DNA from: Candidatus Nitrosymbiomonas proteolyticus
GTDB lineage: Bacteria; Armatimonadota; Fimbriimonadia; Fimbriimonadales; Fimbriimonadaceae
DNA length: 64,000 bases
Direction: 5' to 3'
Assembly (NCBI GenBank): GCA_017347465.1
Contig: AP021858.1
Location: 1,878,472 to 1,942,471 of the forward strand
Shown here in pieces: positions 5,279 to 53,680 of this stretch. The notes beneath the pieces are model-generated. The model saw only the letters and a list, made by a program, of their open reading frames with translations. It did no database searches and was not told the origin of the DNA. Made by a program: the position numbers and the translations under genes. How positions within the stretch are numbered: position 1 is the first letter of the stretch; every line of letters begins with the position of its first letter.

Positions 5279-5284
5279 AGGCTA
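5279..5284 (-). promoter_or_regulatory. -10 like element (TAGCCT) of SIS gene, leaderless type
   Basis: Read on the minus strand, TAGCCT is followed by CACGAG and then ATG, a gap of 6. A start site 6-8 nt after the hexamer would fall at the start codon. No convincing -35 box or Shine-Dalgarno is seen. Confidence 0.45.
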
Positions 5285-5309
5285 CCGCGATGGAGGGCCC
5301 GTTTGTGCG

Positions 5310-5315
5310 TAGACT
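5310..5315 (+). promoter_or_regulatory. -10 like element (TAGACT) of thioredoxin-fold gene, leaderless type
   Basis: TAGACT, then TGGAAT, then ATG (gap 6), without a Shine-Dalgarno sequence. It faces the SIS gene promoter about 25 bp away, so the short divergent region serves both genes. Confidence 0.45.
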
Positions 5316-5321
5316 TGGAAT

Positions 5322-5924
5322 ATGGAGAAACGCGCATTCACTTTGTCGATCGGGGAAGAAGCGCCCGACTTCCGACTCCCCGCGACCGACGGCAGGGAGT
5401 ATGCCTTAGCCGACTTTGAGGACGCCGACGTGTTGGTTGTGATGTTCACTTGCAACCATTGCCCTTACGTGATCGGGAGCGATGAGGACACGAGGCAAAT
5501 CGCCCTCGACTATGCGCCCAAGGGCGTCCGATTCGTCGCGATCAGCTCCAACTCGCCGCGAACCTATGAGGCCGACAGCTTCGACAACATGGCAAAGCGG
5601 ATGGAGGAGCACGGGTTCCCATGGCCGTACCTCTTCGATGCCACCCAGCAAGTCGCGCTGGCGTATGGCGCCCTGCGAACCCCGCATTTCTTCGTGTTCG
5701 ACGGAGATCGAAAGCTCGTCTATACCGGCAGGGCGATCGACTATCCTCGGGATTATCGCCATGCCACCACCCGCGAGTTGCGCGACGCGTTGGACGACCT
5801 CTTTGCGGGACGAGAAGTGAAGGTTTCCGTGACGAACCCGATCGGCTGCAACGTGAAATGGGAAGGCAAAGAGGCGCATTGGATGCCGCCGGAGGCCTGC
5901 GATCTGGTACCTGTTCCTCGGTAG
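5322..5924 (+). CDS. Thioredoxin-like AhpC/TSA family protein
   Basis: 200 residues, cytoplasmic (no signal peptide). It has an AhpC/TSA redoxin fold: the opening [18 protein letters not shown], then the active-site region [14 protein letters not shown] with a CxxC (C-N-H-C, about residues 46-49), and the cis-Pro strand RTPHFFVFD. This CNHCP subgroup is common in bacteria and is usually annotated only as thioredoxin family. Likely a thiol reductase or peroxiredoxin-like protein; its partner is unknown. The C-terminal 40 residues ([15 protein letters not shown]) add a third Cys that is typical of the subgroup. Confidence 0.88.
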
Positions 5925-5990
5925 TCCCATGAGGGTTCCCGCTCGGCCGTCGATACGGCATCGACACGCCGTCCTAGGTTCGGTTACCCT

Positions 5991-6590
5991 GTGGCCGGTG
6001 CAAAGCGTCAAAACAATTCGGTGGTGTCTGCGATCGTAAACAGCGCAAAGGTGGAGTCCTTTGACGAGGATCGAGTCCTGATCGACCGGTTTCTTTCTGG
6101 CGAGGCCGAGGCTTTCGAACGTCTTTACACCCGCTATTACGACAAGGTTTTCTCGGTGGCGCGGGGTGTTCTAATGGACGCCGATGAGGCCGCCGATGCC
6201 GTGCAAGAGATATTTACCCTCGTTTACAAAAATCTCGGCAGGTTCGACAACCGGGCGCGCTTCAGCACATGGCTCTTCCGAATCGCAGTCAACCGCAGCA
6301 TCCAGCAAGCCCGCGCCAACAGGCATCGAAGCCGGCAATCGCCGCTCAACGATGCGATTACGCAAGAAGCCGACCCCGTCGAAGTCGACTCGGACCCGAA
6401 GGTCGAAGCGGCGCTGGCTGAGCTTTCGGCTTCCGACCGCGCGATCCTTTCGCTGTTCTATTGGGAAGAACTCTCCCTCAACGAGATCGCCGAGAGCATG
6501 GGGTGCAGTCCGAACGCGGCCAAGACCCGGCTTTATCGGGCGAGAGAGAGGTTCAGAGAGAAGTACGACGCCCTGGAGGATCGGCCATGA
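5991..6590 (+). CDS. ECF-type RNA polymerase sigma factor
   Basis: 199 residues. Region 2 spans about residues 35-100 (ERLYTRYYDKVFSVA, DADEAADAVQEIF, FSTWLFRIAVNRS). Region 4 lies near 135-190 (LSLFYWEELSLNEIAESMG followed by NAAKTRLYRARERF). It has no sigma-3 region, so it is an ECF (group 4) factor that directs RNA polymerase to a small regulon. GTG is used as the start; no clear Shine-Dalgarno is visible and a GTG 30 bases later is an alternative. The stop overlaps the start of the next gene (ATGA), the usual arrangement for a sigma factor and its membrane regulator. Confidence 0.95.
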   Translation: MAGAKRQNNSVVSAIVNSAKVESFDEDRVLIDRFLSGEAEAFERLYTRYYDKVFSVARGVLMDADEAADAVQEIFTLVYKNLGRFDNRARFSTWLFRIAVNRSIQQARANRHRSRQSPLNDAITQEADPVEVDSDPKVEAALAELSASDRAILSLFYWEELSLNEIAESMGCSPNAAKTRLYRARERFREKYDALEDRP

Positions 6591-8247: not shown

Positions 8248-8311
8248 CCCTTGCCGAGATTCGGCTCGCAAGCGGTTATACTTGCTTTGAGTCAGTTCAA
8301 GGAACCCGTCC

Positions 8312-9034: not shown

Positions 9035-9139
9035 ACCCAGGCCAGGGCGATTGAACGGCTATGCGCTACGCTGGGGTATCCTTTGCCGTCCATTTACCAA
9101 CCACGGCCAAATGCACAACGCGCATGGAAGCGTGGCGTC

Positions 9140-14158: not shown

Positions 14159-15352
14159 CTATCGCACCAGGTCCGGGATGAGGTCCGACGCCGCGATCCT
14201 CCGAACGACCTCGGCGAACCGCTCGCCCTCCCGATCCCCCTTGAGCGTGAGAGACATCCGCAAGTAGCCTTCCCCCTCGCTCCCGTAGCCGCTTCCCGGA
14301 ATGGCGACGACGTTGGCCCTCCGCAGCAGTTCGGCGCAGAATTCCGCGCTCGACATGTCCCCGCGCGGAACCCGAGTCCAGATGTAGAAAGTGGCTTTGG
14401 GTTTCGGGACGTTCCAGCCGATCGACCTCAGGCCGTCGCACAGGAGGTCGCGTCTTCGCTGATAAAGCGCCAGCGTCGACGAGTTATCGACCGCTTCGAG
14501 CGCCACCGCGCCGGCTTCGGCGACGGCGGGGAACTGCTTGCTGTCCAGATTCGACTTCAGCGCCGCGAGGTTCTGAACCGCGTCCGGATTCCCCACGGCG
14601 AACCCGAGCCGCCATCCGGTCATATTGAACATCTTGCTGAGCGAATGGAACTCGAGCGAAACCTCCTTGGCTCCAGACACCTGAAGCACCGTGGGATTCC
14701 GGAAGCCGTCGTAGGTTACCGTCGCGTACGCCATGTCGTTGACGAGGAGAATGTCGTACGTTCGGCAAAACTCCACGAGATCTCGGTAGAACTCGGGCGT
14801 GGCTACGGCGCCGGTCGGGTTGTGAGGATAGCAGACGAAAAACAGCTTGGCGCGTTTGGCGACGTCTGAAGGAATCTCATCCAGTCGCGGAAGGAACCCA
14901 TTTCCCTCTTTGAGCGGCGTTTCGTACACCTGGCCGCCCGCAAAAAGCCCGTTCACCTTGTAGACCGTGTACCCAGGGTTCGGAACGATCACGTAGTCGC
15001 TGGGATCGACATAGGCCCAGCAGAGGTGGGCGAGCCCCTCCTTGCTTCCGATCAATTGAACGAGTTCGGCCGCCGGGTCGACCGCCACCCCAAACTCACG
15101 CTGGTACCAGGACGCGGCGGCGTCGAGGAACCTGCGCCACCCGCGCGGCGTCTCATCGTAGCGGTGGGTCTCAGGGTTCCGTGCGGCTTGGCCCAGCGCG
15201 TCGATCACCGGTTGGGGCGTGGGGAGATCGGGGTCGCCGATGCCGAGGTCGATGACGTCGGCGCCAGAAGCGACCGCCTCGGCCTTGATTCGCGCGATTT
15301 CGGCGAACAGATAGGGAGGTACCAGGTCGAGGCGATGAGCTCTGGCCGGCAT
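14159..15352 (-). CDS. dapL: LL-diaminopimelate aminotransferase (class I/II PLP enzyme)
   Basis: 397 residues. Fold-type I aminotransferase with the DapL pattern: LFAEIARIKAEAVASGADVI, DLGIGDPDLPTP, GSKEGLAHLCWAYV, CYPHNPTGAVAT and the PLP lysine (about K240) in HSLSKMFNMTGWRLGF. It makes LL-diaminopimelate from tetrahydrodipicolinate with glutamate as donor, for lysine and cell-wall synthesis. Closely related alanine or aspartate aminotransferases look similar, so the exact substrate is probable rather than certain. A TACAAT hexamer lies ten bases before the ATG and may be the promoter of a dapL-folC transcript with almost no leader. Confidence 0.85.
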   Translation of the reverse strand: MPARAHRLDLVPPYLFAEIARIKAEAVASGADVIDLGIGDPDLPTPQPVIDALGQAARNPETHRYDETPRGWRRFLDAAASWYQREFGVAVDPAAELVQLIGSKEGLAHLCWAYVDPSDYVIVPNPGYTVYKVNGLFAGGQVYETPLKEGNGFLPRLDEIPSDVAKRAKLFFVCYPHNPTGAVATPEFYRDLVEFCRTYDILLVNDMAYATVTYDGFRNPTVLQVSGAKEVSLEFHSLSKMFNMTGWRLGFAVGNPDAVQNLAALKSNLDSKQFPAVAEAGAVALEAVDNSSTLALYQRRRDLLCDGLRSIGWNVPKPKATFYIWTRVPRGDMSSAEFCAELLRRANVVAIPGSGYGSEGEGYLRMSLTLKGDREGERFAEVVRRIAASDLIPDLVR

Positions 15353-15411
15353 TTCGGACTGAATTGTACCTACGACGCCCGATTCCAGGTACCCTCCGAT
15401 TCGCCTTTCGT

Positions 15412-16536: not shown

Positions 16537-17724
16537 CTACACGCTCTCAGGGAAGGGCCAGGAGGGAAGCGTGCGCTTCAACGGCCGATCCTCCCGATAG
16601 CCCAATTCGTACTCCGCCTGCAAGATCGTGTGAATCTCGTGGGTCCCCTCATAGATCATCGCGCCCCGCGAGTTGCGGAAGTAGCGCTCGACCGGGAACT
16701 CGTCGCAATAGCCATACGCGCCATGAATCTCGACCGCTTTGTGGGCCGCGTCGAAGGCCGCGGCGCAGTTCGTCCACTTCGCCAGCGAAACCTCGCGCGT
16801 GTGACGTGCGCCCGTGTTCTTCATCCACCCGACCTGATAGTAAAGAAGCCTGCCGATATCCCGGCCTTGGACCATGGAAGCGATCATCTGCTGCACGAGT
16901 TGCTTCTTTCCAATGGGTTCGCCGCCCACCTTGCGGTCGTTCGCGTAGGGCACGCAAGCGTCGAGGCAGGCCTGAATGATCCCCACCGCGCCCGAAGCGA
17001 CCGTGTACCGGCCATGATCGAGCGCAGACATGGCCACTCGAAAACCGTCGCCGTCGTCGCCGAGCCTGTTTTCTGCGGGGACTCGGACGTTATCGAAGAA
17101 GATCTGCCCCGTGTTGCCCGCGCGAACGCCAAGTTTGCCCTTGAGTGGCCTTGACGAGAACCCCGGCATGTCCCGCTCGACGATGAGCGCGACGTGGCCT
17201 CCTCCTTCGAGCCGGGCGATCACAAGAAACTGATGAGCGTAGTCGCTCAGGCTGATCCAAGTCTTCTCGCCGGTCAAGAGGTAGTCGCTTCCCTCTTTCG
17301 CAGCGCGGGTCTGAATGTTGATCGCGTCCGACCCCGCGTTCGGCTCGGTGAGTCCAAAGCCGCCGATTCGAGATCCTTTGGCGAGCAGCGGAAGCCACCG
17401 GCGCTTTTGTTCGTTGGTGCCCCACTGCAAGAGAGTCAGGCTGTGGAGTCCGCTATGCACGCTCATCACGACCCTCGCGCTGGTGTCCACCCGCTCGAAC
17501 TCCTCGCAGACGATGCCCAGCGAGATGTAGTCGGTATCCATGCCTCCGTACTTCGCGGGGAGGCTGACGCCGGCAAACCCACCCTCGCCAAGGCGCTCGA
17601 GGAATTCAGGCGAGGGATCTGCGTTGGCGTCTCGCTCGCGGAGTCCGGGCAAGACCGCGTCGAGCGCGAACTTCCTGGCAGACTCGCGGATCAAGGCGTG
17701 TTCGGGTGTGGGAGAGAAGTCCAT
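16537..17724 (-). CDS. Acyl-CoA dehydrogenase
   Basis: 395 residues. FAD-dependent alpha,beta-dehydrogenation of an acyl-CoA in the cytoplasm, passing electrons to ETF. Family signatures are GFGLTEPNAGSDA, GEKTWISLSDYAHQFLV, the GRYTVASGAVGIIQA segment and EIHGAYGYCDEFPVERYFR. The catalytic base is probably Glu359 in MIYEGTHEIH, the position used by short/medium-chain and glutaryl-CoA types. Chain specificity cannot be told. A TACAAT lies ten bases before the ATG. Single gene; no beta-oxidation partners are adjacent. Confidence 0.93.
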   Translation of the reverse strand: MDFSPTPEHALIRESARKFALDAVLPGLRERDANADPSPEFLERLGEGGFAGVSLPAKYGGMDTDYISLGIVCEEFERVDTSARVVMSVHSGLHSLTLLQWGTNEQKRRWLPLLAKGSRIGGFGLTEPNAGSDAINIQTRAAKEGSDYLLTGEKTWISLSDYAHQFLVIARLEGGGHVALIVERDMPGFSSRPLKGKLGVRAGNTGQIFFDNVRVPAENRLGDDGDGFRVAMSALDHGRYTVASGAVGIIQACLDACVPYANDRKVGGEPIGKKQLVQQMIASMVQGRDIGRLLYYQVGWMKNTGARHTREVSLAKWTNCAAAFDAAHKAVEIHGAYGYCDEFPVERYFRNSRGAMIYEGTHEIHTILQAEYELGYREDRPLKRTLPSWPFPESV

Positions 17725-17951
17725 CGGGAGGTCTATTGTACCGTGGGGTGTTGGTCCGTACGTCGAGGCCGAACTAGGCAGTAGAGCCCACGGTTAGGTG
17801 GAAGACTGAGTGGTAAAGGTACAATCTCCCCGTTACGCTTCACGTCGGAATTTCGAGCTTCAGTACCCGGCCTCGAGCCTGTTCCTGAGTTGATATCGAG
17901 CCTTGAATCGGAACAGATCAAGCGGCCCCAGCGCCGCAAAAGGAGGCCAAC

Positions 17952-32234: not shown

Positions 32235-33458
32235 CTACTCTTCTTCGGTGGCGGCGTGTTCGCGAAGTCGCAAAGTGATGCCTCCATGAACCGCGCTTAC
32301 GTCGAGCGAGCCCGCTCCCGATCCCAACCGACCCGTAATGTGCTGGTCCATTCGAGCCTCGTCTTCGAGGACGATATCGCACAGGACGTCGCCCCGGAGG
32401 GTGGACAAGGACACGCGGCAGTCCGAACCGTCGGAGATCGCGAGTACGGCGTCGCCATCGACCGTGCGAACGCTCACCGTGCCGGAGATCGGTTCTTCGA
32501 GGTCAAGGTTGACCGCGCCGGAAACAGATTCGATGGAGAGGGTGCGACCGGAACATCCTTGCAGCGTCACGTCGCCACGTGCCGTTCGGGCGTTGATGTT
32601 GCCCTTCACGTCAGACAAGACGATGTCTCCCGATTTGCTCTCCAGACGGACCGACGGAGATTCGATTCGTTCCAACTTCATATCGCCAGCCTGCGAGGAG
32701 ACCTCGACAGGTCCTGATAGACCCGAGATCTTCACGTCCCCGCTTTGCACCGACAGGCGACAACCCGGCCCCGTATCGCGCACGTCCACGTCGCCCGCCT
32801 GCGTCTTGACCTCGACCACCAAGGGCAGGGCGAGGGTGACTTCGATATCGACCGAAAGGTCCGGAATGTCGGGCTGGCGGATGAGAACTTGGTGATCGCT
32901 CTCTTCGACGACGATCGTGTAGGCGTCCGCGTTCTCCCGTGCCTCGTACTCGTCCGCGCCCCGTACCTTCGCGATCGCTTTCACGACACTCTCGGCCGAA
33001 CCGCCGACTACGCTCACGTCGCCGCAAGGGTTTTCGATCCGCAGGACCTTCGTCTCCGCGACCTTGAGAGGAAGGGTGACCTCCCTCACTTCGTAGGCTC
33101 CAAACCAGCCCAGGCGCAGCTTTCCTTTCTTGACCTTGTCGATCGCGCCCTGCAAGCCCTCATAGCCCTTCTTCGCCCCGGTGCGAACCTGCCGGGCGAC
33201 GTCTTGCCAATCGACCGCAGTCGAGACCTCCCGGCCCAAGCCCTCCATGAAGTCGACGAAGGACTTCATCGGGTCGGTGGCTTTTGCCGAACCCTCCTCA
33301 GCGGAAGCGGTGTCGGACTCGCCTTCAGATTCCTTGGACTCGGACTCGCCCGCGTCCTGTTCGGGAGCGTTGAACGCGTCGATCAACTCCGCTGCGTCCT
33401 CGGGGCTGAGCTTGCCCTCTTGGACGAGTTGCATGATTCTTCGAATCTCTTCCTTCAC
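32235..33458 (-). CDS. DUF4097 (beta-solenoid) protein with N-terminal helical bundle motif
   Basis: 407 residues, no signal peptide or clear membrane span. The N-terminal 28 residues (EEIRRIMQLVQEGKLSPEDA) form an SHOCT-like helical motif. An acidic Ser/Glu linker follows (30-65). From about 120 onward come repeated short strands typical of DUF4097: GDVSVVGGSAE, VDVRDTGPGCRLSVQSGDV, KISGLSGPVEVSSQAGDM, ARGDVTLQGCSGRTL. The family appears in envelope stress regulators such as YvlB and LiaX. Its start overlaps the DUF2089 stop (ATGA), so the two are a regulatory pair. Function inferred from context only. Confidence 0.85.
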   Translation of the reverse strand: MKEEIRRIMQLVQEGKLSPEDAAELIDAFNAPEQDAGESESKESEGESDTASAEEGSAKATDPMKSFVDFMEGLGREVSTAVDWQDVARQVRTGAKKGYEGLQGAIDKVKKGKLRLGWFGAYEVREVTLPLKVAETKVLRIENPCGDVSVVGGSAESVVKAIAKVRGADEYEARENADAYTIVVEESDHQVLIRQPDIPDLSVDIEVTLALPLVVEVKTQAGDVDVRDTGPGCRLSVQSGDVKISGLSGPVEVSSQAGDMKLERIESPSVRLESKSGDIVLSDVKGNINARTARGDVTLQGCSGRTLSIESVSGAVNLDLEEPISGTVSVRTVDGDAVLAISDGSDCRVSLSTLRGDVLCDIVLEDEARMDQHITGRLGSGAGSLDVSAVHGGITLRLREHAATEEE

Positions 33459-33859
33459 TTTCTGACTCCTTCGCGAATTCGTTTCTTGGCTTCCTCGGGC
33501 GTGATCTCGCCGCGTTCAAGCTGCTCGATGATCTTCTTGGTTCTTTCGGATCGGTCTCGTTTGGGGCTTTCGTCGCGCGCGGGCGGGAGGCCGAGGGCTT
33601 CGAGCAATGCGTCGAGCCGGTTTCGAACGGTTGGATAGCTGATCCCGAGTTCTCGCTCGACGCAACTCAATACCCCGCGGCACCGAAGAAAAGCCTCCAG
33701 AAACGCCGCTTGTTCGGGCTCGAGCCGGGAGTATTTGGGAATGGCAAACCTCCCTCGAATCACGACCCCACTGTCATCGCAGGTGAGTTCGCTCACGTAG
33801 AGGCTCTGGCCCGACACCGGGTCCTTATGAGGAATGTCGTGCAGAGGTCGCTCGCTCAT
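33455..33859 (-). CDS. DUF2089 family HTH protein
   Basis: 134 residues. The N-terminus (CDDSGVVIRGRFAIPKYSRL) is the DUF2089 start; a helix-turn-helix follows (VERELGISYPTVRNRLDALL), then a linker and a C-terminal motif (IIEQLERGEITPEEAKKRI) much like the start of its partner. The Cys knuckles found at the N-terminus of many DUF2089 proteins are missing. Probably a DNA-binding regulator acting with the DUF4097 protein. TATGCT eight bases before the ATG and no Shine-Dalgarno suggest a leaderless mRNA. Confidence 0.85.
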   Translation of the reverse strand: MSERPLHDIPHKDPVSGQSLYVSELTCDDSGVVIRGRFAIPKYSRLEPEQAAFLEAFLRCRGVLSCVERELGISYPTVRNRLDALLEALGLPPARDESPKRDRSERTKKIIEQLERGEITPEEAKKRIREGVRK

Positions 33860-33867
33860 GACATAGC

Positions 33868-33873
33868 AGCATA
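33868..33873 (-). promoter_or_regulatory. -10 like element (TATGCT) of DUF2089/DUF4097 pair, leaderless type
   Basis: On the minus strand, TATGCT then GCTATGTC then ATG (gap 8). The flanking 90 bases are unusually AT-rich for this window. Confidence 0.45.
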
Positions 33874-33993: not shown

Positions 33994-33999
33994 TATAGT
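33994..33999 (+). promoter_or_regulatory. -10 like element (TATAGT) of carboxypeptidase gene, leaderless type
   Basis: TATAGT, TGGCGC, ATG (gap 6). No Shine-Dalgarno is possible in the six intervening bases. Confidence 0.5.
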
Positions 34000-34005: not shown

Positions 34006-35502
34006 ATGACAGCTTCCTTGGAATCTCTGGAGTCCCGTTTCGCCGACATCAAGGCCCTGCAGGCCGCCATCGCGATGATGGAGTGGGACCAACAGACCTA
34101 TATGCCGCGGGGTGGGTCGCCGGCTCGGGCCTCACACTTGGGGTCTCTCAGCCGGATTGCCCACGAGATGTTCGTGTCAGAAGAGATCGGGGCGCTCCTT
34201 GGGCGTGCGAAATCGGAGGTGGACCCCGACTCGGAAGAGGGCGCGCTCGTTCGGGTCGCCCAGAGGGAATACGACCTCGCTACGAAGGTCCCGGCGGAAC
34301 TCGTTTCAAGGAAAGTCCAGCTTGCGGCGGAGGGCCACGAGGTTTGGATGGCGGCCCGGGCCAACAACGATTTCGAACGATTCCGCCCCTACCTCGAGCA
34401 GATGTTCGAGATCGCCCGCCAGGAGGCCACCTATCTTGGGTATCGCGATCACATCTACGATGCCTTGTTCGATCAATACGAGGAGGGGGCGAAGGCGGCG
34501 GACGCGACGCGGCTGTTCGAGACCCTCAAGGCGCCCTTGGTCGAACTCGTTCGTCAGATCGCAGAAAGTCAAAACGACCCCGACGACAGCTTCCTCACGG
34601 GCGAGTGGCCGGAATCCAAGCAGCGCGAGTTCACGGAGTTCCTGGTCAAGGAGATCGGCTTCGACATGAACCGAGGTCGGCAAGACGTCGCCCCGCATCC
34701 GTTTTGCACCGGATGGTCGGTGGGCGACATTCGATTGACGACTCGATTCAAGCCGTACCTTGCATCGTCGATCTTCGCCTCGCTCCATGAGGCAGGGCAT
34801 GGGATGTATGAGCAAGGTTCGCCGGCCGCTTGGGATTTGAAGCTCCCAATGCTGGTCGGAGGCGTGTCATTGGGAGTTCATGAGAGCCAATCCCGTCTGT
34901 GGGAGAACATCGTCGGCCGTTCGCGCCCGTTCTGGAAGAGGCACCTGCCCGAACTGGCCCACCGCTTCCCTGAGTTCTCCGAAGTCCCGCTCGACACGTT
35001 CTATCGGGCCGTGAACAAGGTCCAGCCCTCTCTCATTCGCGTGGAAGCGGACGAAGTCACGTACAACCTCCATATCCTCGTGCGATTCGAACTCGAATGC
35101 GACCTACTTACCGGCGACCTGAAGGCCAAGGACCTTCCCGCCGCGTGGAATGCCAAGTACAAGGAGTATTTGGGAATCGAACCGGAAACGGACTCCGACG
35201 GGTGCCTCCAGGACGTCCACTGGTCGAGCGGTCTCATCGGCTACTTCCCGACGTACAGCATGGGCAACTTGCTCAGCTACCAGATATGGAACGCCCTGCG
35301 GAAGGACCTCGGCGACACCGACGCGCTCATCGAGCAAGGCGAGTTCCGTCCGATCCTGGGCTGGCTCCAAGAAAACATCTATCGCCACGGAAAGCGCTAC
35401 CAGCCGCAGGACCTGATCGAACGCGCGACCGGTAGGCGGATGGAAGCCAACGACTACCTCACGGGCATCCGCGCCAAGTACTCGGAACTCTATGGGCTGT
35501 GA
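34006..35502 (+). CDS. Carboxypeptidase Taq, M32 metallopeptidase
   Basis: 498 residues, standard for M32, cytoplasmic. The zinc site HEAGH (His261, Glu262, His265) sits in ASLHEAGHGMYEQG; the third ligand is the Glu in GVHESQSRLWENIVGRS. Other family marks are MMEWDQQTYMP near the start, DVAPHPFC, and DDVHWSSGLIGYFPTYSMGN-like WSSGLIGYFPTYSMGN near 410. It removes C-terminal residues from peptides. First gene, followed 72 bp later by NDH-2; co-transcription is possible. Confidence 0.95.
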   Translation: MTASLESLESRFADIKALQAAIAMMEWDQQTYMPRGGSPARASHLGSLSRIAHEMFVSEEIGALLGRAKSEVDPDSEEGALVRVAQREYDLATKVPAELVSRKVQLAAEGHEVWMAARANNDFERFRPYLEQMFEIARQEATYLGYRDHIYDALFDQYEEGAKAADATRLFETLKAPLVELVRQIAESQNDPDDSFLTGEWPESKQREFTEFLVKEIGFDMNRGRQDVAPHPFCTGWSVGDIRLTTRFKPYLASSIFASLHEAGHGMYEQGSPAAWDLKLPMLVGGVSLGVHESQSRLWENIVGRSRPFWKRHLPELAHRFPEFSEVPLDTFYRAVNKVQPSLIRVEADEVTYNLHILVRFELECDLLTGDLKAKDLPAAWNAKYKEYLGIEPETDSDGCLQDVHWSSGLIGYFPTYSMGNLLSYQIWNALRKDLGDTDALIEQGEFRPILGWLQENIYRHGKRYQPQDLIERATGRRMEANDYLTGIRAKYSELYGL

Positions 35503-35574: not shown

Positions 35575-36870
35575 GTGGTGATCGTCGGGGCGGGTTTTGG
35601 GGGGTTGCAGGCTGCCCGCAGCCTTAGGCGGGCGCCAGTCGAAGTCCTCGTCATCGACCGCCAGAACCACCACCTGTTTCAACCGTTGCTCTACCAAGTG
35701 GCGACCGCCGGACTCTCGCCCGCCGACATCGCGGTTCCGATTCGGAGGCTTCTGCGAGGTCAAGAGAACGCGGAGGTCCTGATGGCGGAGGTTCGGGAGG
35801 TCGACGCCCAACAAAGCATCGTTCGCCATTCGATGGGCGAGGTCCGTTACGATTATCTCGTTCTCGCGACGGGCGTTCGCCACGCCTATTTCGGGAACGA
35901 TGCATGGGAAGCCGACGCGCCCGGACTCAAGACGCTCGATGACGCGGTCGCGATCCGCCGGAAGGTGCTTGTCGCTTTTGAGAGGGCCGAGGCTTCGACC
36001 GACCCCTCCGAGCGGGCGGGATGGCTGACCTTCGTCATCGTAGGCGGAGGCGCAACGGGGGTCGAACTTGCGGGTTCCCTCGCCGAACTCTCGCGCAGGG
36101 CGCTGTCATGGGATTTCCGCAGGATCGATCCGGCAGCAGCGCGAATCGTCCTCATCGAGGCCGGGGACCGGGTTATGGCGTCGTTCGACCCGAAGCTATC
36201 CCGCTTTACTTTGGAAGCACTTGAGTCGTTGGGGGTGGAGACAAGACTTGGAGCAAAAGTGACCGACGTTCACCCCGACGGAGTCGAGACCACCGAAGGC
36301 CGCATCGAAGCTCGAACGGTCATTTGGGCCGCAGGCGTCCAAGCCACTCGCGCCACGGGGTGGTTGGACGCGCCGCGCGACCGGGCCGGGCGCATTCGAG
36401 TGCTTCCCGATTGCCGGGTTCCAGGGCATGAGAACCTCTTCGCCATCGGCGACGCGATGACCCTTAAGGGCTCTGAGGGGGAGCCCCTGCCGGGGGTTGC
36501 CCAAGTCGCGATGCAGCAAGGGAAGTTTGTGGCAGGGGTGATCGCGCGCGAGGTTCGCGGACAGCGTCCGGCTGAGGCGTTTCGCTATAAGGACAAGGGC
36601 AATATGGCGACGATCGGCCGCCGCCTAGCCATCGCCGAACTCGGTTCGTTGCGACTCAAGGGCGCTCTTGCGTGGCTGATTTGGGTCTTCGTCCACATTT
36701 GGTACCTGATCGACTTTCAGAACCGCGTTCTGGTCTTCCTGAAGTGGATTTGGGCCTACGCCACCTTTCATCGGGGCGCGCGCCTGATTACGGGGGTGGA
36801 CGCCGAGAGAGACCCGAACCTCAGTAATCCACAGGACGAAGGTAATAGTCGCCGATCGAACTCGAACTGA
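35575..36870 (+). CDS. ndh: Type II NADH dehydrogenase (NDH-2)
   Basis: 431 residues. FAD-binding Rossmann motif VIVGAGFGGLQAAR at the very start, NHHLFQPLLYQVATAGLSP, then NADH-binding VIVGGGATGVELAGSLAEL near 150, and the FAD motif NLFAIGDAM near 290. A C-terminal membrane-associating region (ALAWLIWVFVHIWYLIDFQN) anchors it to the inner face of the membrane. Oxidises NADH and reduces quinone without pumping. The first codon is GTG (35575), with another GTG three bases later; an in-frame stop at 35530 and no other start codon limit the choice. Its last 50 bases overlap the convergent nadE. Confidence 0.93.
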   Translation: MVIVGAGFGGLQAARSLRRAPVEVLVIDRQNHHLFQPLLYQVATAGLSPADIAVPIRRLLRGQENAEVLMAEVREVDAQQSIVRHSMGEVRYDYLVLATGVRHAYFGNDAWEADAPGLKTLDDAVAIRRKVLVAFERAEASTDPSERAGWLTFVIVGGGATGVELAGSLAELSRRALSWDFRRIDPAAARIVLIEAGDRVMASFDPKLSRFTLEALESLGVETRLGAKVTDVHPDGVETTEGRIEARTVIWAAGVQATRATGWLDAPRDRAGRIRVLPDCRVPGHENLFAIGDAMTLKGSEGEPLPGVAQVAMQQGKFVAGVIAREVRGQRPAEAFRYKDKGNMATIGRRLAIAELGSLRLKGALAWLIWVFVHIWYLIDFQNRVLVFLKWIWAYATFHRGARLITGVDAERDPNLSNPQDEGNSRRSNSN

Positions 36871-37678
36871 GCATGGCGACCGTGGGGGGCCTGCGCTTCC
36901 AATGCGTCGCATCGACCCAACGATCGACTTGAGTGACTTTTCGCTCCTCGAACCCCGCTTCGACGAGCAGCCTGGCGGGGAATCCCTTCATCCGGTAATG
37001 GAGGATCCGATCTGCCTCTTCGTAGGTGATCCCGAGGTCGCCTTCGTCGGTTTGGTCAGGCTCCAGATCGGCGGTCGGTAGCTTCTTGCGGATGGGCTCG
37101 GGAACCTGTAGGTGTTCCGCCAACTGCCGCACCTGGGTCTTGAAAAGGTCGCCCAGCGGGTTGATTGGGGGAGAATCGTCGGCGTGCCATGTGAAGTACC
37201 CGAACATCCTCTCGGTCTTGTTGCCCGTGCCGATGGGGAGCGCTCCCAGCTTGGCGGAGAGGTCGAAAAGCACGATCATCCGGGCTCGCGCGCAGACGTT
37301 GCCCAGCCTGCGAGGCGTCAGCGCTTCCCAATCCGCGTACCCGTCGACCATTCCTGTTATGTCCACGGTGAGCGTTTGCAAGCCCAGATGGTCGATCACG
37401 AGTTGCGCGTGGGTCAAGCTGTCCGGTGAAGAGGTCTTGTACGGCATTCGAACGGCAACGACATTGTCGGGCCCAAACGCCTGAGCGCAAAGGTACGCGG
37501 TTACGGCGCTGTCGATCCCACCCGAAAGCCCGAGAACCGCTTGGGTGATACCCCGCCTCCTGATGCACTCGTCTCGGAGGAACTGCACGAGCCACGTCGA
37601 AACGAGCTCGGCGTTGAGGCGCAAAGGCTCGCTGGAGTGAGGGTCGATCTTCGAACCCCAAAAAACGGGCACGGCCAT
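36821..37678 (-). CDS. nadE: NH3-dependent NAD+ synthetase
   Basis: 285 residues, the ammonia-dependent form without a nitrilase domain. Amidates deamido-NAD using ATP. The PP-loop is LGLSGGIDSAVTAYL (SGGIDS at 52-57). GTGNKTERMFGYFTWHADD, INPLGDLFKTQVRQLA and PTADLEPDQTDEGDLGITYEE are the expected family segments. Start at MAVPVFWGSK was chosen because the frame upstream is unlike protein and a TACCAT hexamer lies seven bases before this ATG, which fits a leaderless mRNA. Convergent overlap of 50 bp with NDH-2, so both stops lie inside the other gene. Confidence 0.95.
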   Translation of the reverse strand: MAVPVFWGSKIDPHSSEPLRLNAELVSTWLVQFLRDECIRRRGITQAVLGLSGGIDSAVTAYLCAQAFGPDNVVAVRMPYKTSSPDSLTHAQLVIDHLGLQTLTVDITGMVDGYADWEALTPRRLGNVCARARMIVLFDLSAKLGALPIGTGNKTERMFGYFTWHADDSPPINPLGDLFKTQVRQLAEHLQVPEPIRKKLPTADLEPDQTDEGDLGITYEEADRILHYRMKGFPARLLVEAGFEERKVTQVDRWVDATHWKRRPPTVAMLSSSSIGDYYLRPVDY

Positions 37679-37685: not shown

Positions 37686-37691
37686 ATGGTA
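37686..37691 (-). promoter_or_regulatory. -10 like element (TACCAT) of nadE, leaderless type
   Basis: On the minus strand, TACCAT then CTCGTTC then ATG (gap 7); no Shine-Dalgarno. Confidence 0.4.
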
Positions 37692-40389: not shown

Positions 40390-40434
40390 ATCGCGCGGTT
40401 TGGAGTCGATTTGGGTAGACTGAACCCTCTGAGC

Positions 40435-45271: not shown

Positions 45272-45277
45272 TACAAT
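45272..45277 (+). promoter_or_regulatory. -10 like element (TACAAT) of leuS, leaderless type
   Basis: TACAAT, GGGGCTC, ATG (gap 7). It supports the ATG at 45285 over the one at 45276, which lies inside the hexamer. Confidence 0.5.
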
Positions 45278-45284: not shown

Positions 45285-47972
45285 ATGCCCGATCGATACG
45301 ACCCGACGACGTTTGAGTCCAAATGGCGCGAGCGCTGGAGGAGCGCCGACCTCTTTCGGACTCGCGAAGACCCCGAGCGGCCCAAGTTCTACGGGCTCGA
45401 CTTCTTTCCGTATCCTTCGGGCGCGGGCTTGAGCGTCGGCCACTGCCGCAACTACATCCCGACCGATGTCCTTTGCCGCATGAAGTTCATGCAGGGCTAC
45501 AACGTGCTGCACCCGATGGGGTTCGACGCGTTCGGGCTTCCGGCGGAGAACGAGGCGATCGCGAAGAAGACGCACCCTGCTCCGATGGTGAAGAGCTACG
45601 GCGAGAATTACCGCAGGCAAATGGACCTCATCGGGATCAGTTACGACTGGAGCCGCAGCTTCTATTCGAGCGATCCTGAGTACTACCGTTGGACCCAGTG
45701 GATCTTCGAGCTTCTCTATAAGAAAGGCCTCGCCTACCGGCGGCCCGCAACGGTCAATTGGTGCCCGAAGGACCTCACCGTACTTGCGGACGAAGAGGTC
45801 GAAGGAGGGCTTTGCTGGCGGTGTGGGTCGAAAGTCGAAAGGAAGCAAATCCCCCAGTGGTTCTTCAAGATCACCGCGTACGCCGACAGGCTCCTGGAGG
45901 ACCTCGATTCCCTGGATTGGCCCGAAGGCATCAAGGAGATGCAGCGGAACTGGATCGGGCGATCCGAAGGCGTTGAGTTCGAGATGAAGGTGGTTCTCCC
46001 GGATTCGGGCGCAGCCGACGATCCGAACGAGTTCCGGGTGCTCAACCGCGAGCGGCAGCCCACGTTCAGGGTGTTTACCACGCGAATCGACACCGTGTTC
46101 GGAATGACGTTTTGCGTCCTGGCGCCCGAGCACGAGCTTGTCCCTTTCTTCTTGGGCTCGACCGAGCAAGCAAGCGATCCTGAGACTGCCGAACGAGCGA
46201 GGGAAGTCGCCGATTACGTCGAGCGAGCAAGGTCGATGAGCGAAGCCGCGCGCACCGCCGGCGACCGAGAGAAGACGGGGGTGTTTTCGGGGTTCTACGC
46301 GCTGAACCCGGCCACGGGACGCCGCGTGCCGATTTGGATCGCGGATTATGTCGTCGCGAGCTACGGTACTGGGGCGATCATGGCCGTACCCGGACACGAC
46401 GAGCGCGACTTCGAGTTCGCCCAGAAGTACGGGATCGAGATCGTCGAAGTCATCCGCCCTCTGGATGAGGGCTCCCCCCACGAGGGCAAAGTGTTTACGG
46501 GCAAGGCGGGAGTGCTCACCTACTCGGGAGAGTACAACGGCCAAACCGTCGAGGAAGCTCAGAAGAACCTCACACATTGGGTAACGGCACTAGGGATGGG
46601 CGAGGCGAAAGTTACTTATCGCCTTCGCGATTGGCTCATTTCGCGCCAGAGGTATTGGGGCTGTCCGATCCCCGTCATCCTCGACTCAGAAGGCGGCACG
46701 CACTTGGTGTCGGAAGACTGCTTGCCCGTGATGCTGCCCGAAGTCGAGCGCTACGAGCCGTCGCCCGACGGCAAGTCGCCGCTGGCCGGCATTCCCGACT
46801 TCGTCAACGTGACGGGCCCGGAAGGCGACCTCGCCCAGCGGGAAACCGACACGATGGGAGGCTTCGCCTGTTCGTCGTGGTACTTCCTGCGGTTTTGCGA
46901 CCCCTGGAACGATGATCGGGCTTGGGACCTGGAGAAGGTGCGGCAATGGATGCCGGTGGATTGTTACGTCGGAGGGGCGGAGCACGCCGTCATGCACCTG
47001 CTCTACGCCAGGTTCTGGACCAAAGTCCTTTACGACGAGGGCCTCGTTCCGGTCAAAGAGCCGTTCCAGAGGCTGATGAACCAGGGACAGGTACTCGCGC
47101 TCACGCCATACCGAAAGCCGCGCGAGAGCGAATCGCTCGATGTGGGCCAGGAAGGGATTCTGGTTTCGTTCGAGGAGGCTCGGAGTCTCCCTGAATCGGA
47201 AGCCCTTTGGAGATGGGCTCGGATGAGCAAGTCGAAAGGCAACGTCGTGACGCCCGATGAGGTCGTGGAGAGCCACGGAGCCGACGCGCTGCGTGTGGGC
47301 GAGCTCTTTGTGGCGCCTTTCGACGCGGACGTAAACTGGTCCGACGACATCGTGGTTGCCGCGGAGAGGTTCTTGAACCGGGTGTTCCGGCTGGCCGCTC
47401 GGCTCTCCCCCACGCACGACCGAACCTGGCGAAGCGGGGTCCCCTCGGCATCCGAGGCCTCTGCCGAGGTGAGGGAAATCCGCCGAGCGACCCACCGCTG
47501 CATCGCCAAATCGACCGAGGACATCGAGCGGTTTGCGTTCAACACCTACATCGCTGCTCTGATGACGTTCGTCAATGAGATCAACGACGCCCTGAAGTCG
47601 AACCCGTCCGAATCGGACAAGGAACTTGCGTACGCCTACAGCGAAGCGCTCGAATCGCTGATCCTCCTGCTGGCCCCTGCCGCGCCGTTTTCGTGCGACG
47701 AACTGTGGGAATCGCTCGGGTATGAGGGGTTTACCTATCAGGCCGGTTGGCCCGTCGCCGACCCTGAACTCCTGAGGGCCGACCTGATGACGATAGCCGT
47801 GCAAGTCAATGGGAAGCTACGTGACACGTTGGAGATGCCTGCGGGCGCCTCTCAAGGCGAACTGGAGCAGGCGGCTCTCGCCTCGGAGCGGGTCCAAGCC
47901 CACCTCGCAGGAAAGACCGTTCGCCGGGTCATCGTTGTACCTGGGAGGCTCGTTAACGTGGTCGCGCCATGA
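45285..47972 (+). CDS. leuS: Leucyl-tRNA synthetase
   Basis: 895 residues, class Ia. HIGH-type signature FPYPSGAGLSVGHCRNY; KMSKS motif in WARMSKSKGNVVTPDE near residue 650; a CP1 editing domain (YGTGAIMAVPGHDERDFEFA); a zinc-type knuckle region WCPKDLTVLADEEV with a single clear CxxC-like pair (CWRCG); the C-terminal anticodon domain and VQVNGKLRDTLEMPAG. Charges tRNA-Leu. Complete and normal in length. Gene stands alone; leaderless promoter likely. Confidence 0.97.
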   Translation: MPDRYDPTTFESKWRERWRSADLFRTREDPERPKFYGLDFFPYPSGAGLSVGHCRNYIPTDVLCRMKFMQGYNVLHPMGFDAFGLPAENEAIAKKTHPAPMVKSYGENYRRQMDLIGISYDWSRSFYSSDPEYYRWTQWIFELLYKKGLAYRRPATVNWCPKDLTVLADEEVEGGLCWRCGSKVERKQIPQWFFKITAYADRLLEDLDSLDWPEGIKEMQRNWIGRSEGVEFEMKVVLPDSGAADDPNEFRVLNRERQPTFRVFTTRIDTVFGMTFCVLAPEHELVPFFLGSTEQASDPETAERAREVADYVERARSMSEAARTAGDREKTGVFSGFYALNPATGRRVPIWIADYVVASYGTGAIMAVPGHDERDFEFAQKYGIEIVEVIRPLDEGSPHEGKVFTGKAGVLTYSGEYNGQTVEEAQKNLTHWVTALGMGEAKVTYRLRDWLISRQRYWGCPIPVILDSEGGTHLVSEDCLPVMLPEVERYEPSPDGKSPLAGIPDFVNVTGPEGDLAQRETDTMGGFACSSWYFLRFCDPWNDDRAWDLEKVRQWMPVDCYVGGAEHAVMHLLYARFWTKVLYDEGLVPVKEPFQRLMNQGQVLALTPYRKPRESESLDVGQEGILVSFEEARSLPESEALWRWARMSKSKGNVVTPDEVVESHGADALRVGELFVAPFDADVNWSDDIVVAAERFLNRVFRLAARLSPTHDRTWRSGVPSASEASAEVREIRRATHRCIAKSTEDIERFAFNTYIAALMTFVNEINDALKSNPSESDKELAYAYSEALESLILLLAPAAPFSCDELWESLGYEGFTYQAGWPVADPELLRADLMTIAVQVNGKLRDTLEMPAGASQGELEQAALASERVQAHLAGKTVRRVIVVPGRLVNVVAP

Positions 47973-48808: not shown

Positions 48809-48814
48809 TATCCT
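48809..48814 (+). promoter_or_regulatory. -10 like element (TATCCT) of pepC, leaderless type
   Basis: TATCCT, TGCGCTC, ATG (gap 7); no Shine-Dalgarno. Confidence 0.45.
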
Positions 48815-48821: not shown

Positions 48822-50186
48822 ATGGCTTTTTCAACAGAACCTGCCCTAGCAAAGGGAGCAATCGACTCGAAGAAGATCGCGAAGTTTCAAGACCAGTTTG
48901 AGTCTGACGACCGCTACCTGCAATCCATGAACGCCGTCGCCGGGACCCCGGTCAGCAAGGTGGCCTTGAACCGCAGGAAGGCGAGCAAGGTCAGCCATTC
49001 GTTCAGCGTCCATCTTCCCGAGAACAAGGCCACGGCCCAAATGTCCAGCGGGCGGTGCTGGTTGTTCGCGGCTCTGAACGTGTTTCGACCGCGCGCGATC
49101 AAGGCGATGAACGTGGGCGACGATTTCGAGTTCAGCCAAAACTACGTGCTGTTTTGGGACAAGTTCGAAAAGGCCAACTACTTTCTGGAAGCGATCCTCA
49201 GCACCCTTGACGAGCCCGTAGGCAGTCGGCTTCTCGACCACCTCTTGATGGCCCCTGTGCAGGACGGCGGGCAATGGCACATGTTCGTCAACCTCGTGCG
49301 GAAGTATGGGGTGATCCCGAAGTCCGTCATGCCCGAAACGGAGTCCAGTTCGAGTACGGGACAAATGAGCTTCCAAATCACGGGCAAGCTGCGCGAATAC
49401 GCTTGCCGACTGCGGGAAAGGGCGGCCTCAGGCGATCCCGAATCCGACCTCCGGGAAGAGAAAGAGAGGTTCCTCGGCGAGATCTATCGGATGCTGTGCA
49501 TTCACCTGGGCGAGCCTCCGTCGGAGTTCCTTTGGCAATGGAGGGACAAGGACAAGAAGTTCACCCGCGCCGGGCAGCTCACGCCCCAGGAGTTCTATGA
49601 AAAGTTCGTCGGGATCGACCTCTCGGAGTACGTGTGCCTCATTCACGATCCCCGGCCGAAGCACGAGTTTAACCGAACTTACACGGTGAAGTTCCTCGGC
49701 AACGTCGTTGAGGGCGAGCCGATCGTCTACCTCAACGTCGAAGCCGGTCTCATGAAGCGGGCGGCCATCCACCAACTTCAGAACGAGGAGCCGGTTTGGT
49801 TCGGGTGCGATGTCGGGAAGTACCTCGATCGCGACCTCGGAGTCATGGACCCCGACCTCTTCAACTTCGACCTGGTCTATGGCACCGAGCACCGGCTGAG
49901 CAAGGCCGAGCGGCTCATGTATGGCCACTCCGCGATGACCCACGCGATGGTCTTCACGGGGGTCGATCTCGACGACTCGGGCGCGCCCCTCAAGTGGAGG
50001 GTGGAGAACTCCTGGTCCGAAAAGCCGGGCGACAAGGGGTTCTTCCAGATGTCGGATCGGTGGTTTGACGAGTTCAATTACGAGGCGGTCGTTCGGAAGG
50101 AGTTCGTTCCGGAGGAGACCCTTCGCGCACTGGAAGAGCCACCCGTCGAGCTTGATCCTTGGGACCCTATGGGCAGCTTGGCGTAG
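48822..50186 (+). CDS. pepC: Aminopeptidase C / bleomycin hydrolase (C1B peptidase)
   Basis: 454 residues, standard for the family, cytoplasmic. Papain-like triad: Cys79 in SSGRCWLFAALN, His in SAMTHAMVFTGVDLD (about 374) and Asn in WRVENSWSEKPGDKGFF (about 396). LLDHLLMAPVQDGGQWHMF and VWFGCDVGK are also family marks. Forms a hexamer with internal active sites and removes N-terminal residues. The C-terminal residues extend a little past the usual end (PMGSLA). Confidence 0.95.
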   Translation: MAFSTEPALAKGAIDSKKIAKFQDQFESDDRYLQSMNAVAGTPVSKVALNRRKASKVSHSFSVHLPENKATAQMSSGRCWLFAALNVFRPRAIKAMNVGDDFEFSQNYVLFWDKFEKANYFLEAILSTLDEPVGSRLLDHLLMAPVQDGGQWHMFVNLVRKYGVIPKSVMPETESSSSTGQMSFQITGKLREYACRLRERAASGDPESDLREEKERFLGEIYRMLCIHLGEPPSEFLWQWRDKDKKFTRAGQLTPQEFYEKFVGIDLSEYVCLIHDPRPKHEFNRTYTVKFLGNVVEGEPIVYLNVEAGLMKRAAIHQLQNEEPVWFGCDVGKYLDRDLGVMDPDLFNFDLVYGTEHRLSKAERLMYGHSAMTHAMVFTGVDLDDSGAPLKWRVENSWSEKPGDKGFFQMSDRWFDEFNYEAVVRKEFVPEETLRALEEPPVELDPWDPMGSLA

Positions 50187-50206
50187 AGGTCTCTTTACGG
50201 GGAGAC

Positions 50207-50716: not shown

Positions 50717-50787
50717 CCCAAAACCTCCCCGTCTCCCCTCCAGGGGAGAAGGGGATCGAGGGGATGAGGGGCTCATCCCAGGGGGCC
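50717..50787. repeat. Palindrome-rich intergenic repeat, partial copy 3
   Basis: The first 71 bp of the unit only, containing the first two palindromes. It stops at GGGGGC, three bases before the stop codon of the DUF4349 gene. Confidence 0.88.
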
Positions 50788-50790
50788 GGG

Positions 50791-51666: not shown

Positions 51667-51752
51667 GGTTCACCTCCTGTTGCAGCAAGCAACCACTGCG
51701 TTCCTTCGGGGCGTTCCTGGGTCCTAGGCGCGTGATTTCTGAACCTCTGAGG

Positions 51753-51781
51753 TTCCTGGCGGCCGGGCAGATCGCTATACT
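51753..51781 (+). promoter_or_regulatory. Promoter of serine hydrolase gene, leaderless type
   Basis: TTCCTG, a 17-base spacer and TATACT, then AAACGGG and ATG (gap 7). The best -35/-10 spacing among the leaderless candidates. Confidence 0.5.
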
Positions 51782-51788
51782 AAACGGG

Positions 51789-52898
51789 ATGGACTTGGGA
51801 CCTCTCTTGGAGCTTTGCGAACAGGGCGTGCGCGACGGCGTGTTTCCGGGAGCAGCGTTTGCGGTGGGCTCGGCGCAGAAGACGGAGGTCGGCTGTGTGG
51901 GTCGACAGCGCTACGAGCCATCCGCGCCGGAAATCACTCCGGCGACCCTCTTCGACATGGCGTCAGTGACCAAGGTCTTCGCCACAACGACCGCCGCCAT
52001 GCTCTTGCACGACGACGGCAAGCTCGACATCGCCGCCCCCGTCGCTCGTTACCTACCCCAATTCGCGGTCGAGGGCAAGAAGGAGATCACCGTTCGAAAC
52101 CTGCTCGTCCACGATTCCGGCCTGCCCGCGTACGCGAACTACCAAGGCAAGCTGACGACCTGCGAGGCGGTGCGCCAGGCTCTGCTCGAAGAGAAGCCCA
52201 TCAATCCTGTAGGGAAGACCACGGTCTACAGTTGCCTGAACGCCATCAGCCTTCAAAGGGTGATCGAGGCCCTCGCTGGTGTCCCGTTGGATCGTTTTCT
52301 TTCGCAGCGGGTGTTCGGGCCGCTCGGGCTTACTTCGACTCTTTTCTGTCCGCCCGAAGCCGACTGGAGCCTCGCGGCGCCGACCGAAAAGATGGCCCGT
52401 TGGCGGCTCTCCTTCCGAAAGGAACCCCCGACCCAACCCGAAGACATCGAGCGCGCGCTCGGGGCTTGGATTCAAGGCGAGGTGCATGATCCTTTGGCCT
52501 ATATGCAGGGCGGGGTCTCGGGCAATGCGGGGCTGTTCTCGACGGTCGGCGACACCGCCAAGTTCCTGCGGATGATGCTGGAAAAGGGGAGCGGTTCGGG
52601 AAAGCAGATCGTTTGCTCGGGCACGGTGGAGGAGTGGACTCGAAGGCAGGGCAGCGAGAGTTCTCGTTCGCTCGGATGGGACACCAAGTCGGCGAAGGGC
52701 TCGTCGGCGGGTTCGAAGTTCTCGATGCGGAGCTTCGGACACACGGGGTTCACAGGCACCTGCGTGTGGGTCGATCCAGAAAACGAGTTGTTCGCCGTAC
52801 TCTTGACCAACCGCGTGCATCCGACTTCAGAAAACTCGAAGATCACGCAGTTTCGTCCGAAGTTCCACGATCTCGTGTTTCGCCTAGCCAAGGGGTAG
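51789..52898 (+). CDS. Beta-lactamase family serine hydrolase (class C / esterase type)
   Basis: 369 residues, no signal peptide, so probably cytoplasmic. Active-site SxxK is SVTK (Ser59, Lys62) in DMASVTKVFATTTAAML. NLLVHDSGLPAYANY and FGHTGFTGTCVW (the HTG equivalent of KTG) fit the family. The middle motif, usually YxN, is YSC in TTVYSCLNAISLQRV, so the Asn is replaced. This group includes esterases, D-aminopeptidases and PBP4-like proteins. Start chosen because the promoter -10 ends seven bases before it; the frame extends 19 codons further up but overlaps that promoter. Confidence 0.88.
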   Translation: MDLGPLLELCEQGVRDGVFPGAAFAVGSAQKTEVGCVGRQRYEPSAPEITPATLFDMASVTKVFATTTAAMLLHDDGKLDIAAPVARYLPQFAVEGKKEITVRNLLVHDSGLPAYANYQGKLTTCEAVRQALLEEKPINPVGKTTVYSCLNAISLQRVIEALAGVPLDRFLSQRVFGPLGLTSTLFCPPEADWSLAAPTEKMARWRLSFRKEPPTQPEDIERALGAWIQGEVHDPLAYMQGGVSGNAGLFSTVGDTAKFLRMMLEKGSGSGKQIVCSGTVEEWTRRQGSESSRSLGWDTKSAKGSSAGSKFSMRSFGHTGFTGTCVWVDPENELFAVLLTNRVHPTSENSKITQFRPKFHDLVFRLAKG

Positions 52899-52916
52899 AA
52901 CCGAGGTCGAAACCGA

Positions 52917-52922
52917 TAGAAT
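52917..52922 (+). promoter_or_regulatory. -10 like element (TAGAAT) of rsmE, leaderless type
   Basis: TAGAAT, GGCTGAGG, ATG (gap 8). It lies 19 bases after the stop of the previous gene. Confidence 0.4.
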
Positions 52923-52930
52923 GGCTGAGG

Positions 52931-53680
52931 ATGAGTCGAACTCAAGCAGGCCGTAAACGCCGCCAATCCGAAGACTTTCGGGCTCTGCCTCGCGTCGTCG
53001 TCGAGGGCTTCTTGCCCGGCGAGCCGGCTGAGCTTCCTCAAGCGGAGTTGGATAAGCTCCGAAAGGTGCTCCGCCTTTCCACCGGAGACCCCCTGTTGAT
53101 CGTGCCCGGCGATGGGACCGTGGTGCGTTGCCGGTTGGAGGGACGCCGAGTCGTGCCGATGGAGACCCTCCATCCCCAAACCGAACCCGCCCTGAAGGTG
53201 ACTCTCGCTCAAGCCTTGCCAAAGGGGGACCGCATCGAAACGATCGTTCGGACTTGTACCGAAATCGGGGTGGCGAGGTTCTGGTTTTTCCCGGCGGCTC
53301 GAAGCGTCGTGCGGTGGGACCCTGGCAAGCGTGAGCACAAGCTACGGCGGCTTGCGGTCATCGCCCGCGAGGCCGTCGAGCAGTGTTTTCGAACCCAGGT
53401 CCCGACGATTGAATTCCTTGAGGGGCTGTCCGATGTGCTGGATCGCGAACCGGGTGCGGTCGTGCTTTCGGAGTCGGAGGGCCTGACCACTTGGCTCCGC
53501 GAAGCCACCGCCCCCAAGCGGGGAAGCGGCGTTACGTTGGTAGTGGGTCCGGAAGGGGGATGGACGCAGTCCGAACTTGCGATGATCGGGCACAGGGGGG
53601 TGACTCTGGGCCCTCGCGTACTGCGAACGGACACGGCCGGCCCCGCTGCGGCCGCGATCCTGCTGCTCGGCGGAGAATGA
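52931..53680 (+). CDS. rsmE: 16S rRNA m3U1498 methyltransferase
   Basis: 249 residues. SPOUT-class RsmE: PRVVVEGFLPGEPAELP with the PUA-like start, QALPKGDRIETIVRTCTEIGV, FFPAARSVVRWDPGKREHKLRRL, EAVEQCFRTQVPTI, and the knotted SAM site VTLVVGPEGGWTQSELAM with LGPRVLRTDTAGPAA. Methylates U1498 in the 30S subunit. Followed 37 bp later by rph. Confidence 0.95.
   Translation: MSRTQAGRKRRQSEDFRALPRVVVEGFLPGEPAELPQAELDKLRKVLRLSTGDPLLIVPGDGTVVRCRLEGRRVVPMETLHPQTEPALKVTLAQALPKGDRIETIVRTCTEIGVARFWFFPAARSVVRWDPGKREHKLRRLAVIAREAVEQCFRTQVPTIEFLEGLSDVLDREPGAVVLSESEGLTTWLREATAPKRGSGVTLVVGPEGGWTQSELAMIGHRGVTLGPRVLRTDTAGPAAAAILLLGGE

Follow-up and report, generated by a model that had tools for sequence, protein, structure and literature searches.

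TAnnnT hexamers upstream of genes in the window

The window analyzed here is a 64-kb stretch of the single-contig, 2.81-Mb genome of Candidatus Nitrosymbiomonas proteolyticus, and our subject is the hexamer TAnnnT that recurs immediately before its start codons. The first-pass annotation of the window had reported nine genes in which such a hexamer ends 6–8 bases before the start codon (throughout, spacing is the number of bases between the end of TAnnnT and the start codon), and all nine were located in the sequence at the reported spacings. The putative -10 elements with a spacing of 6 precede the ATG of a SIS-domain gene (TAGCCT at 5279–5284, reverse strand; gene at 4316–5272; PF01380), a thioredoxin-like gene (TAGACT at 5310–5315, forward; gene at 5322–5924; PF08534), and an M32 carboxypeptidase gene (TATAGT, GGTATAGT, at 33994–33999, forward; gene at 34006–35502; PF02074). 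A spacing of 7 was found for nadE (TACCAT at 37686–37691, reverse; gene at 36821–37678; PF02540), leuS (TACAAT at 45272–45277, forward; ATG at 45285, gene at 45285–47972), a pepC-like gene (TATCCT at 48809–48814, forward; gene at 48822–50186; PF03051), and a serine hydrolase gene of the Pfam Beta-lactamase family (TATACT at 51776–51781, forward; ATG at 51789, gene at 51789–52898; PF00144), the last of which received a posterior of only 0.67 in the mixture model described below. The spacing is 8 for a DUF2089 gene (TATGCT at 33868–33873, reverse; gene at 33455–33859; PF09862) and rsmE (TAGAAT at 52917–52922, forward; ATG at 52931, gene at 52931–53680; PF04452). The orthologue of pepC in the relative G088 (C14:266530-267885) contains one in-frame TAG.

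Three further genes were confirmed to carry the hexamer at slightly larger spacings. The gene annotated earlier as dapL, which Pfam identifies only as a class I/II aminotransferase (14159–15352, reverse; PF00155), and an acyl-CoA dehydrogenase gene (16537–17724, reverse) are both preceded at a spacing of 10 by TACAAT (GGTACAAT), at 15363–15368 and 17735–17740, respectively; a leader of a few nucleotides is predicted for the former. The corresponding element of rph (53718–54455, forward; PF01138) is TATTCT (GGTATTCT) at 53703–53708, with a spacing of 9. The other gene names in the window hold at the family level in Pfam. The same motif was found before untranslated genes as well, namely TAGACT (GGTAGACT) at 40416–40421 on the forward strand, 13 nt before a tRNA-Glu gene (40435), and TACCCT (GGTACCCT) at 15390–15395 on the forward strand, 16 nt before a tRNA-Pro gene (15412).

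The nine genes had been taken to be the first of their transcripts, which does not hold by neighborhood for leuS and rsmE, since a same-strand gene lies shortly upstream of each. In leuS, the serine hydrolase gene, and rsmE, moreover, the hexamer stands at its spacing only if the start differs from that picked by coding potential. The hexamer of leuS overlaps the in-frame ATG at 45276; the start of the longest frame is therefore probably three codons too early, and the true start is probably 45285 rather than 45276. Among the best 80 loci, the LeuS sequence was closest to those of two Armatimonadetes metagenome-assembled genomes (59–60% identity), the remaining loci being 44–49% identical, which places the organism in Armatimonadota.

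Genome-scale enrichment and the share of leaderless-type genes

To the window we added 60 spread stretches of 20 kb, giving a sample of 1.264 Mb (45% of the genome), to which the counts below refer unless stated otherwise. Genes were called with a self-trained dicodon model that picked each start from coding potential and the type of start codon alone, leaving the upstream sequence unused. Of the 1165 genes called, 1097 could be used, having both a start and no less than 150 nt upstream, and dropping two at stretch edges left 1095, comprising 362 that are first in a divergent arrangement (divergent-first genes) and 733 others (co-directional genes, of which 339 lie at least 40 nt from their upstream neighbor and 394 lie closer). 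TAnnnT at a spacing of 6–8 was found in 47 of the 362 divergent-first genes, compared with 11.1 expected from other distances, and in 51 of the 733 others (12.2 expected). The latter were divided into 27 co-directional genes with gaps of at least 40 nt (6.4 expected) and 24 genes with smaller gaps (5.1 expected). Among the 64 patterns of the form XYnnnZ, TAnnnT ranked first in each of the three classes. The count by distance against controls, which had been proposed as the check for leaderless transcription, gave a peak at spacings 6 (25 of the divergent-first genes), 7 (12), and 8 (10) over a background of approximately 3.7 per position, and the spacings of 9, 10, and 11 were enriched as well (10, 9, and 6). 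The background of 11.1 in 362 genes (3.1%) agrees with the chance rate of 2–3% assumed beforehand. The same caller recovered the hexamer in 5 of 26 divergent-first genes of Deinococcus radiodurans MP1 (1.0 expected), in none of 26 in Escherichia coli (1.9 expected), and in 11 of 214 in 30 named loci of Bacilli (21.9 expected).

In the window itself, 7 of 24 divergent-first genes with coding-potential starts bear the hexamer at 6–8 (0.7 expected; P = 1.2e-5), being six of the nine genes above plus a trypsin-like gene at 58057. The window is thus richer than the rest of the sample, in which 40 of 338 divergent-first genes carry it. This richness, together with the three of the nine genes that need an alternative start, is what one would see if the hexamers were chance matches found by searching among alternative starts. 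The enrichment nevertheless persists with starts chosen blind to the upstream sequence and also without any gene calls, as TANAMT-N6-ATG and TANAMT-N7-ATG occurred 34 and 27 times, respectively, against approximately 8 per spacing. Chance is contradicted also by the pattern ranking, by the shuffles described next, and by the whole-genome counts in relatives given below, and we assign it a negligible probability.

We fitted a mixture of three classes (leaderless, Shine-Dalgarno [SD], and neither) over alternative starts, which converged to the motif GGTAnAMT with spacing weights of 0.37 at 6, 0.19 at 7, and 0.10–0.12 each at 8–10; two halves of the gene set yielded nearly the same motif, each peaking at a spacing of 6. 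The fitted weight of the leaderless class (25%) was rejected as a measure of its size, because a refit on shuffled upstream sequences still assigned 18% to this class. Leaderless-type genes were counted as those exceeding 0.8 under the fixed model and compared with the mean of 12 shuffles, with the genes divided into 362 divergent-first genes, 331 with gaps of more than 40 nt, 209 with gaps of 1–40 nt, and 193 overlapping the upstream neighbor. In total, 202 of the 1095 genes were of leaderless type versus 30 in the shuffles. The excess was seen in the divergent-first genes (108 versus 10.6) and those with gaps of more than 40 nt (50 versus 10.0), and was absent from the overlapping genes (3 versus 4.2); of the 54 genes in the window, 14 exceeded the threshold. 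The net leaderless-type share would thus be about 27% of divergent-first genes and 16% of all genes. The proposal of widespread leaderless transcription is supported, except for the share of about one third implied by the nine genes, as the raw excess amounts to approximately 10% of the divergent-first genes and the fitted model gives approximately 27%.

Promoter element or ribosome-binding signal

In the 98 hexamer instances found at 6–8, the two preceding bases were mostly G (0.61 and 0.63), the fourth base of the hexamer was mostly A (0.57), and the fifth was usually A (0.36) or C (0.42), so that the motif resolves to GGTAnAMT. A TTG at the 17-bp spacer was found in 7 of the 202 leaderless-type genes, compared with 3.0 on average over offsets, and two other offsets also gave 7. 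There appears to be hardly any -35 element, at most a weak one in few genes.

A fixed distance to the start codon and the near absence of SD from hexamer genes (both occur together in only 7 of 98, or 4/47, 2/27, and 1/24 by class) might be expected of a translation signal within a leader, i.e., a ribosome site of non-SD type. Against this, the hexamer showed no enrichment before genes overlapping their upstream neighbors (1 of 193; 1.5 expected), in which the SD fraction was 0.57, compared with 0.13–0.35 in four gap bins of divergent-first genes. Furthermore, a weight matrix built from the mRNA starts scored at least 6 bits at 8–21 nt before 17 of 25 tRNA genes (26 were found, one being left unscored), its rate in gene bodies being 0.00085 per base, and the same matrix was in excess at 20–40 and 80–90 nt before 86 divergent-first genes of SD type. 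The base preferences at the fourth and fifth positions of the hexamer are those of a Pribnow box. The lack of enrichment at overlapping genes and the presence of the motif at tRNA genes therefore argue for a promoter rather than a ribosome-binding signal, and we regard the latter as highly improbable.

The data fit a promoter element with the transcription start (+1) at the start codon. The hexamer was found at 1 of 76 TTG starts and at 97 of 1021 ATG or GTG starts, as expected if the first base of the codon is a purine serving as +1. Real promoters initiating a few bases farther upstream, which would yield very short leaders of 1–8 nt rather than strictly leaderless mRNAs, would agree with the enrichment at spacings of 9–11 and with the commonest distance of the motif before tRNA genes (11–12 nt). 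The peak at 6, for which initiation 7 nt past the hexamer would coincide with the start codon, and the avoidance of TTG speak against such leaders being the rule, and we consider this possibility unlikely; it overlaps with the leaderless reading, in which leaders of 1–4 nt are predicted for some genes, and the two are not mutually exclusive.

Altogether, the organism very probably produces leaderless mRNAs from many genes alongside a working SD system, as Deinococcus does. We propose sigma-70-type promoters in which the hexamer, within GGTAnAMT, is the -10 element and a recognizable -35 is mostly missing. RNA polymerase would begin 6–7 bases past the hexamer, on the purine (A or G) that opens the start codon. 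The resulting mRNA would have no leader (1–4 nt at spacings of 9–10) and no SD, and the ribosome would engage it at the 5'-terminal AUG or GUG. According to the model fit, this mode would apply to about one in four transcript-first genes and one in six genes overall. Many of the remaining genes use SD, with the anti-SD GGATCACCTCCTT intact in the 16S gene, and some of them carry the same promoter motif farther upstream.

Several observations weigh against this proposal. All gene starts are computed predictions. Over the whole genome, the loose pattern TANNNT-N6-ATG showed no excess (288 versus 276 in a backward control), because the coding background is too high for it; the excess it missed was resolved with GGTANMMT over a range of spacings. 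Leaderless-type genes extend beyond transcript-first genes, as 41 of the 209 genes with gaps of 1–40 nt belong to them (5.5 in shuffles), and at gaps of 1–20 nt, 6 of 9 hexamers at 6–8 fall on the stop codon that ends the preceding gene. The sample is uneven, in that co-directional genes with gaps of at least 40 nt rarely bore the hexamer in the first 464 kb (1 of 140, or 4 of 139 after retraining) and did so more often in the stretches that follow (23 of 200). Among orthologues of 25 leaderless-type genes in other genera of the family, 2 were of SD type and 13 undecided, and the called starts lay more than 5 residues apart in 7 pairs.

The coincidence with stop codons concerns six gene pairs with a gap of exactly 9, in which the TAA or TAG of the upstream gene supplies the TA of a TAnnnT whose spacing from the following start codon is 6. 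In some of these pairs GG stands before the TA, and the coincidence may be due to chance or to a shared element.

Distribution in the phylum and comparison with known systems

The signal was found again in the relatives of the organism. In a second genome of the species, 8 of 34 divergent-first genes in the stretches covering the region of the window carry the hexamer; genome G077 belongs to the same species, and its long matches, 95–99% identical, diverge too little for substitutions to be tested. Across six further genera of the family, the total was 33 of 210 (approximately 5 expected), not each being significant alone (G126, 3 of 26; P = 0.07). The 128 orthologue pairs with these six genera are partly non-independent, since some genes are represented twice; in them, the relative shared the type for 10 of 25 leaderless-type genes, compared with 9 of 103 other genes having a leaderless-type orthologue (P = 4e-4), so that the mode is conserved more often than expected.

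Ten genomes, each from a different family other than that of the window, carried the hexamer at 4 of 176 divergent-first genes (approximately 7 expected). To conclude from this that the signal is missing outside the family would be too broad, since the sample held no genome of family f13 and its member of f21 (G056) is weakly positive genome-wide. We counted GGTANMMT-N6-10-ATG against an N16-20 control in 151 whole genomes with corrected significance. All 25 drawn genomes of the family of the window (f1, probably Fimbriimonadaceae; 13 genera) were significant, with ratios of 2.1–7.8 (median 4.5). Outside the family, 12 of 126 genomes of the phylum were significant, with a median ratio of 1.01 across the 126, and the positives fell in four families (f13, 5/9; f21, 5/6; f8, 1/14; f34, 1/2). 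No drawn genome was significant in the remaining 33 families, many of which are represented by one or two genomes; the pattern was derived from the genome of the window, and lineages with a different promoter flank may therefore be missed. Two f13 genomes gave far higher counts (G013, 490 versus 109 in controls; G071, 486 versus 108) than the genome of the window (82 versus 15). In G013, the 100 sites listed of the 490 were all different and peaked at a spacing of 6 (44/100). Family f13 may represent another leaderless lineage of the phylum, independent of that of the window.

In a search for RpoD (TIGR02393), none of the 25 f1 genomes reached the RpoD_Cterm cut-off of 354 bits (the best listed score being 348), albeit each held 4 to 8 matches, and the cut-off was reached by 101 of the 151 genomes. 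A link between these sub-threshold scores and the promoter type in f1 is possible.

The first-pass annotation had also suggested two translation-start classes, with exported proteins on the SD side. In the mixture classes, a hydrophobic N-terminus was found in 32 of 202 leaderless-type and 191 of 454 SD genes. By plain motifs, SD occurred in 94 of 348 genes with a hydrophobic N-terminus and 113 of 749 others (odds ratio [OR] 2.1), and the leaderless hexamer in 21 of 348 and 77 of 749 (OR 0.56, P = 0.02). The suggestion of two classes thus holds only in part: exported proteins do lean toward SD. The idea that they are set apart by the leaderless system was dropped, as an SD trend of like size exists in the ten genomes from outside the family (66 of 180 versus 107 of 446; OR 1.8), one of which, G056, has a weak leaderless signal. 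E. coli lacked the association (4 of 19 versus 17 of 63), and the Bacilli loci showed the opposite (47 of 147 versus 173 of 394; OR 0.60). Apparently, the SD lean is modest and phylum-wide and not due to leaderless genes, because other families show a similar OR.

We tentatively combine three conjectures, which as a whole we find possible but rather doubtful. First, the leaderless mode may have been gained or kept several times in the phylum, throughout f1 and separately in f13 and f21 as well as in one genome each of f8 and f34. Second, the GG-extended -10 with hardly any -35 may be the general housekeeping promoter of f1. Third, the choice of a leader may depend partly on protein destination, exported proteins keeping SD.

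We found no account of leaderless transcription in Armatimonadota in the literature searched; the GeneMarkS-2 study or the supplementary domain-wide scan of PMC12340547 could include such genomes. SD genes are reported to make up 25% in Fimbriimonadia versus 70% in Chthonomonadetes (PMC10783764), and the passages covering this low use give no promoter or leaderless explanation; if f1 is Fimbriimonadaceae, leaderless genes would be a likely cause and would help to explain the figure. Gene callers relying on SD may misplace starts in these genomes, leuS being a candidate. As the phylum holds genomes both with and without leaderless genes, their comparison could show what drives the switch.

Leaderless signatures of this kind are known in Deinococcus and Actinobacteria, as the first-pass annotation had stated, and 21.6% of bacterial species are predicted to use leaderless transcription, a figure cited in the StartLink paper (PMC9581028). 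A survey of TA-led genes in 953 bacterial genomes placed the first T of TANNNT approximately 12 bp before the start in several phyla, averaging 19.2% in Actinobacteria and 39.4% in Deinococcus-Thermus; Armatimonadota is unnamed in its Table 2 and could fall under 'Other Bacteria' (PMC3160421). In D. radiodurans, TANNNT lies approximately 6–7 bp before the open reading frame in nearly one third of genes, SD being the other main motif, and experiments are reported to support its action as a promoter -10 that is sufficient without a -35 (PMC12340547). The present genome differs from Deinococcus (PMC12340547) in the GG before the hexamer, the lower share of genes, and the phylum. Thus, this is a known kind of arrangement in a little-studied lineage for which we found no description, patchy within its phylum. 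It resembles the TA-led leaderless genes of bacteria in that TANNNT peaks above background at the corresponding distance, about 6–8 nt before starts, and is more frequent in transcript-first than in coupled genes, with short-gap genes still carrying some, and in that SD is scarce in hexamer genes, present elsewhere, and matched by an intact anti-SD. As in Deinococcus-Thermus (PMC12340547), TANNNT hexamers (here putative -10 elements) adjoin open reading frames and an SD system operates alongside.

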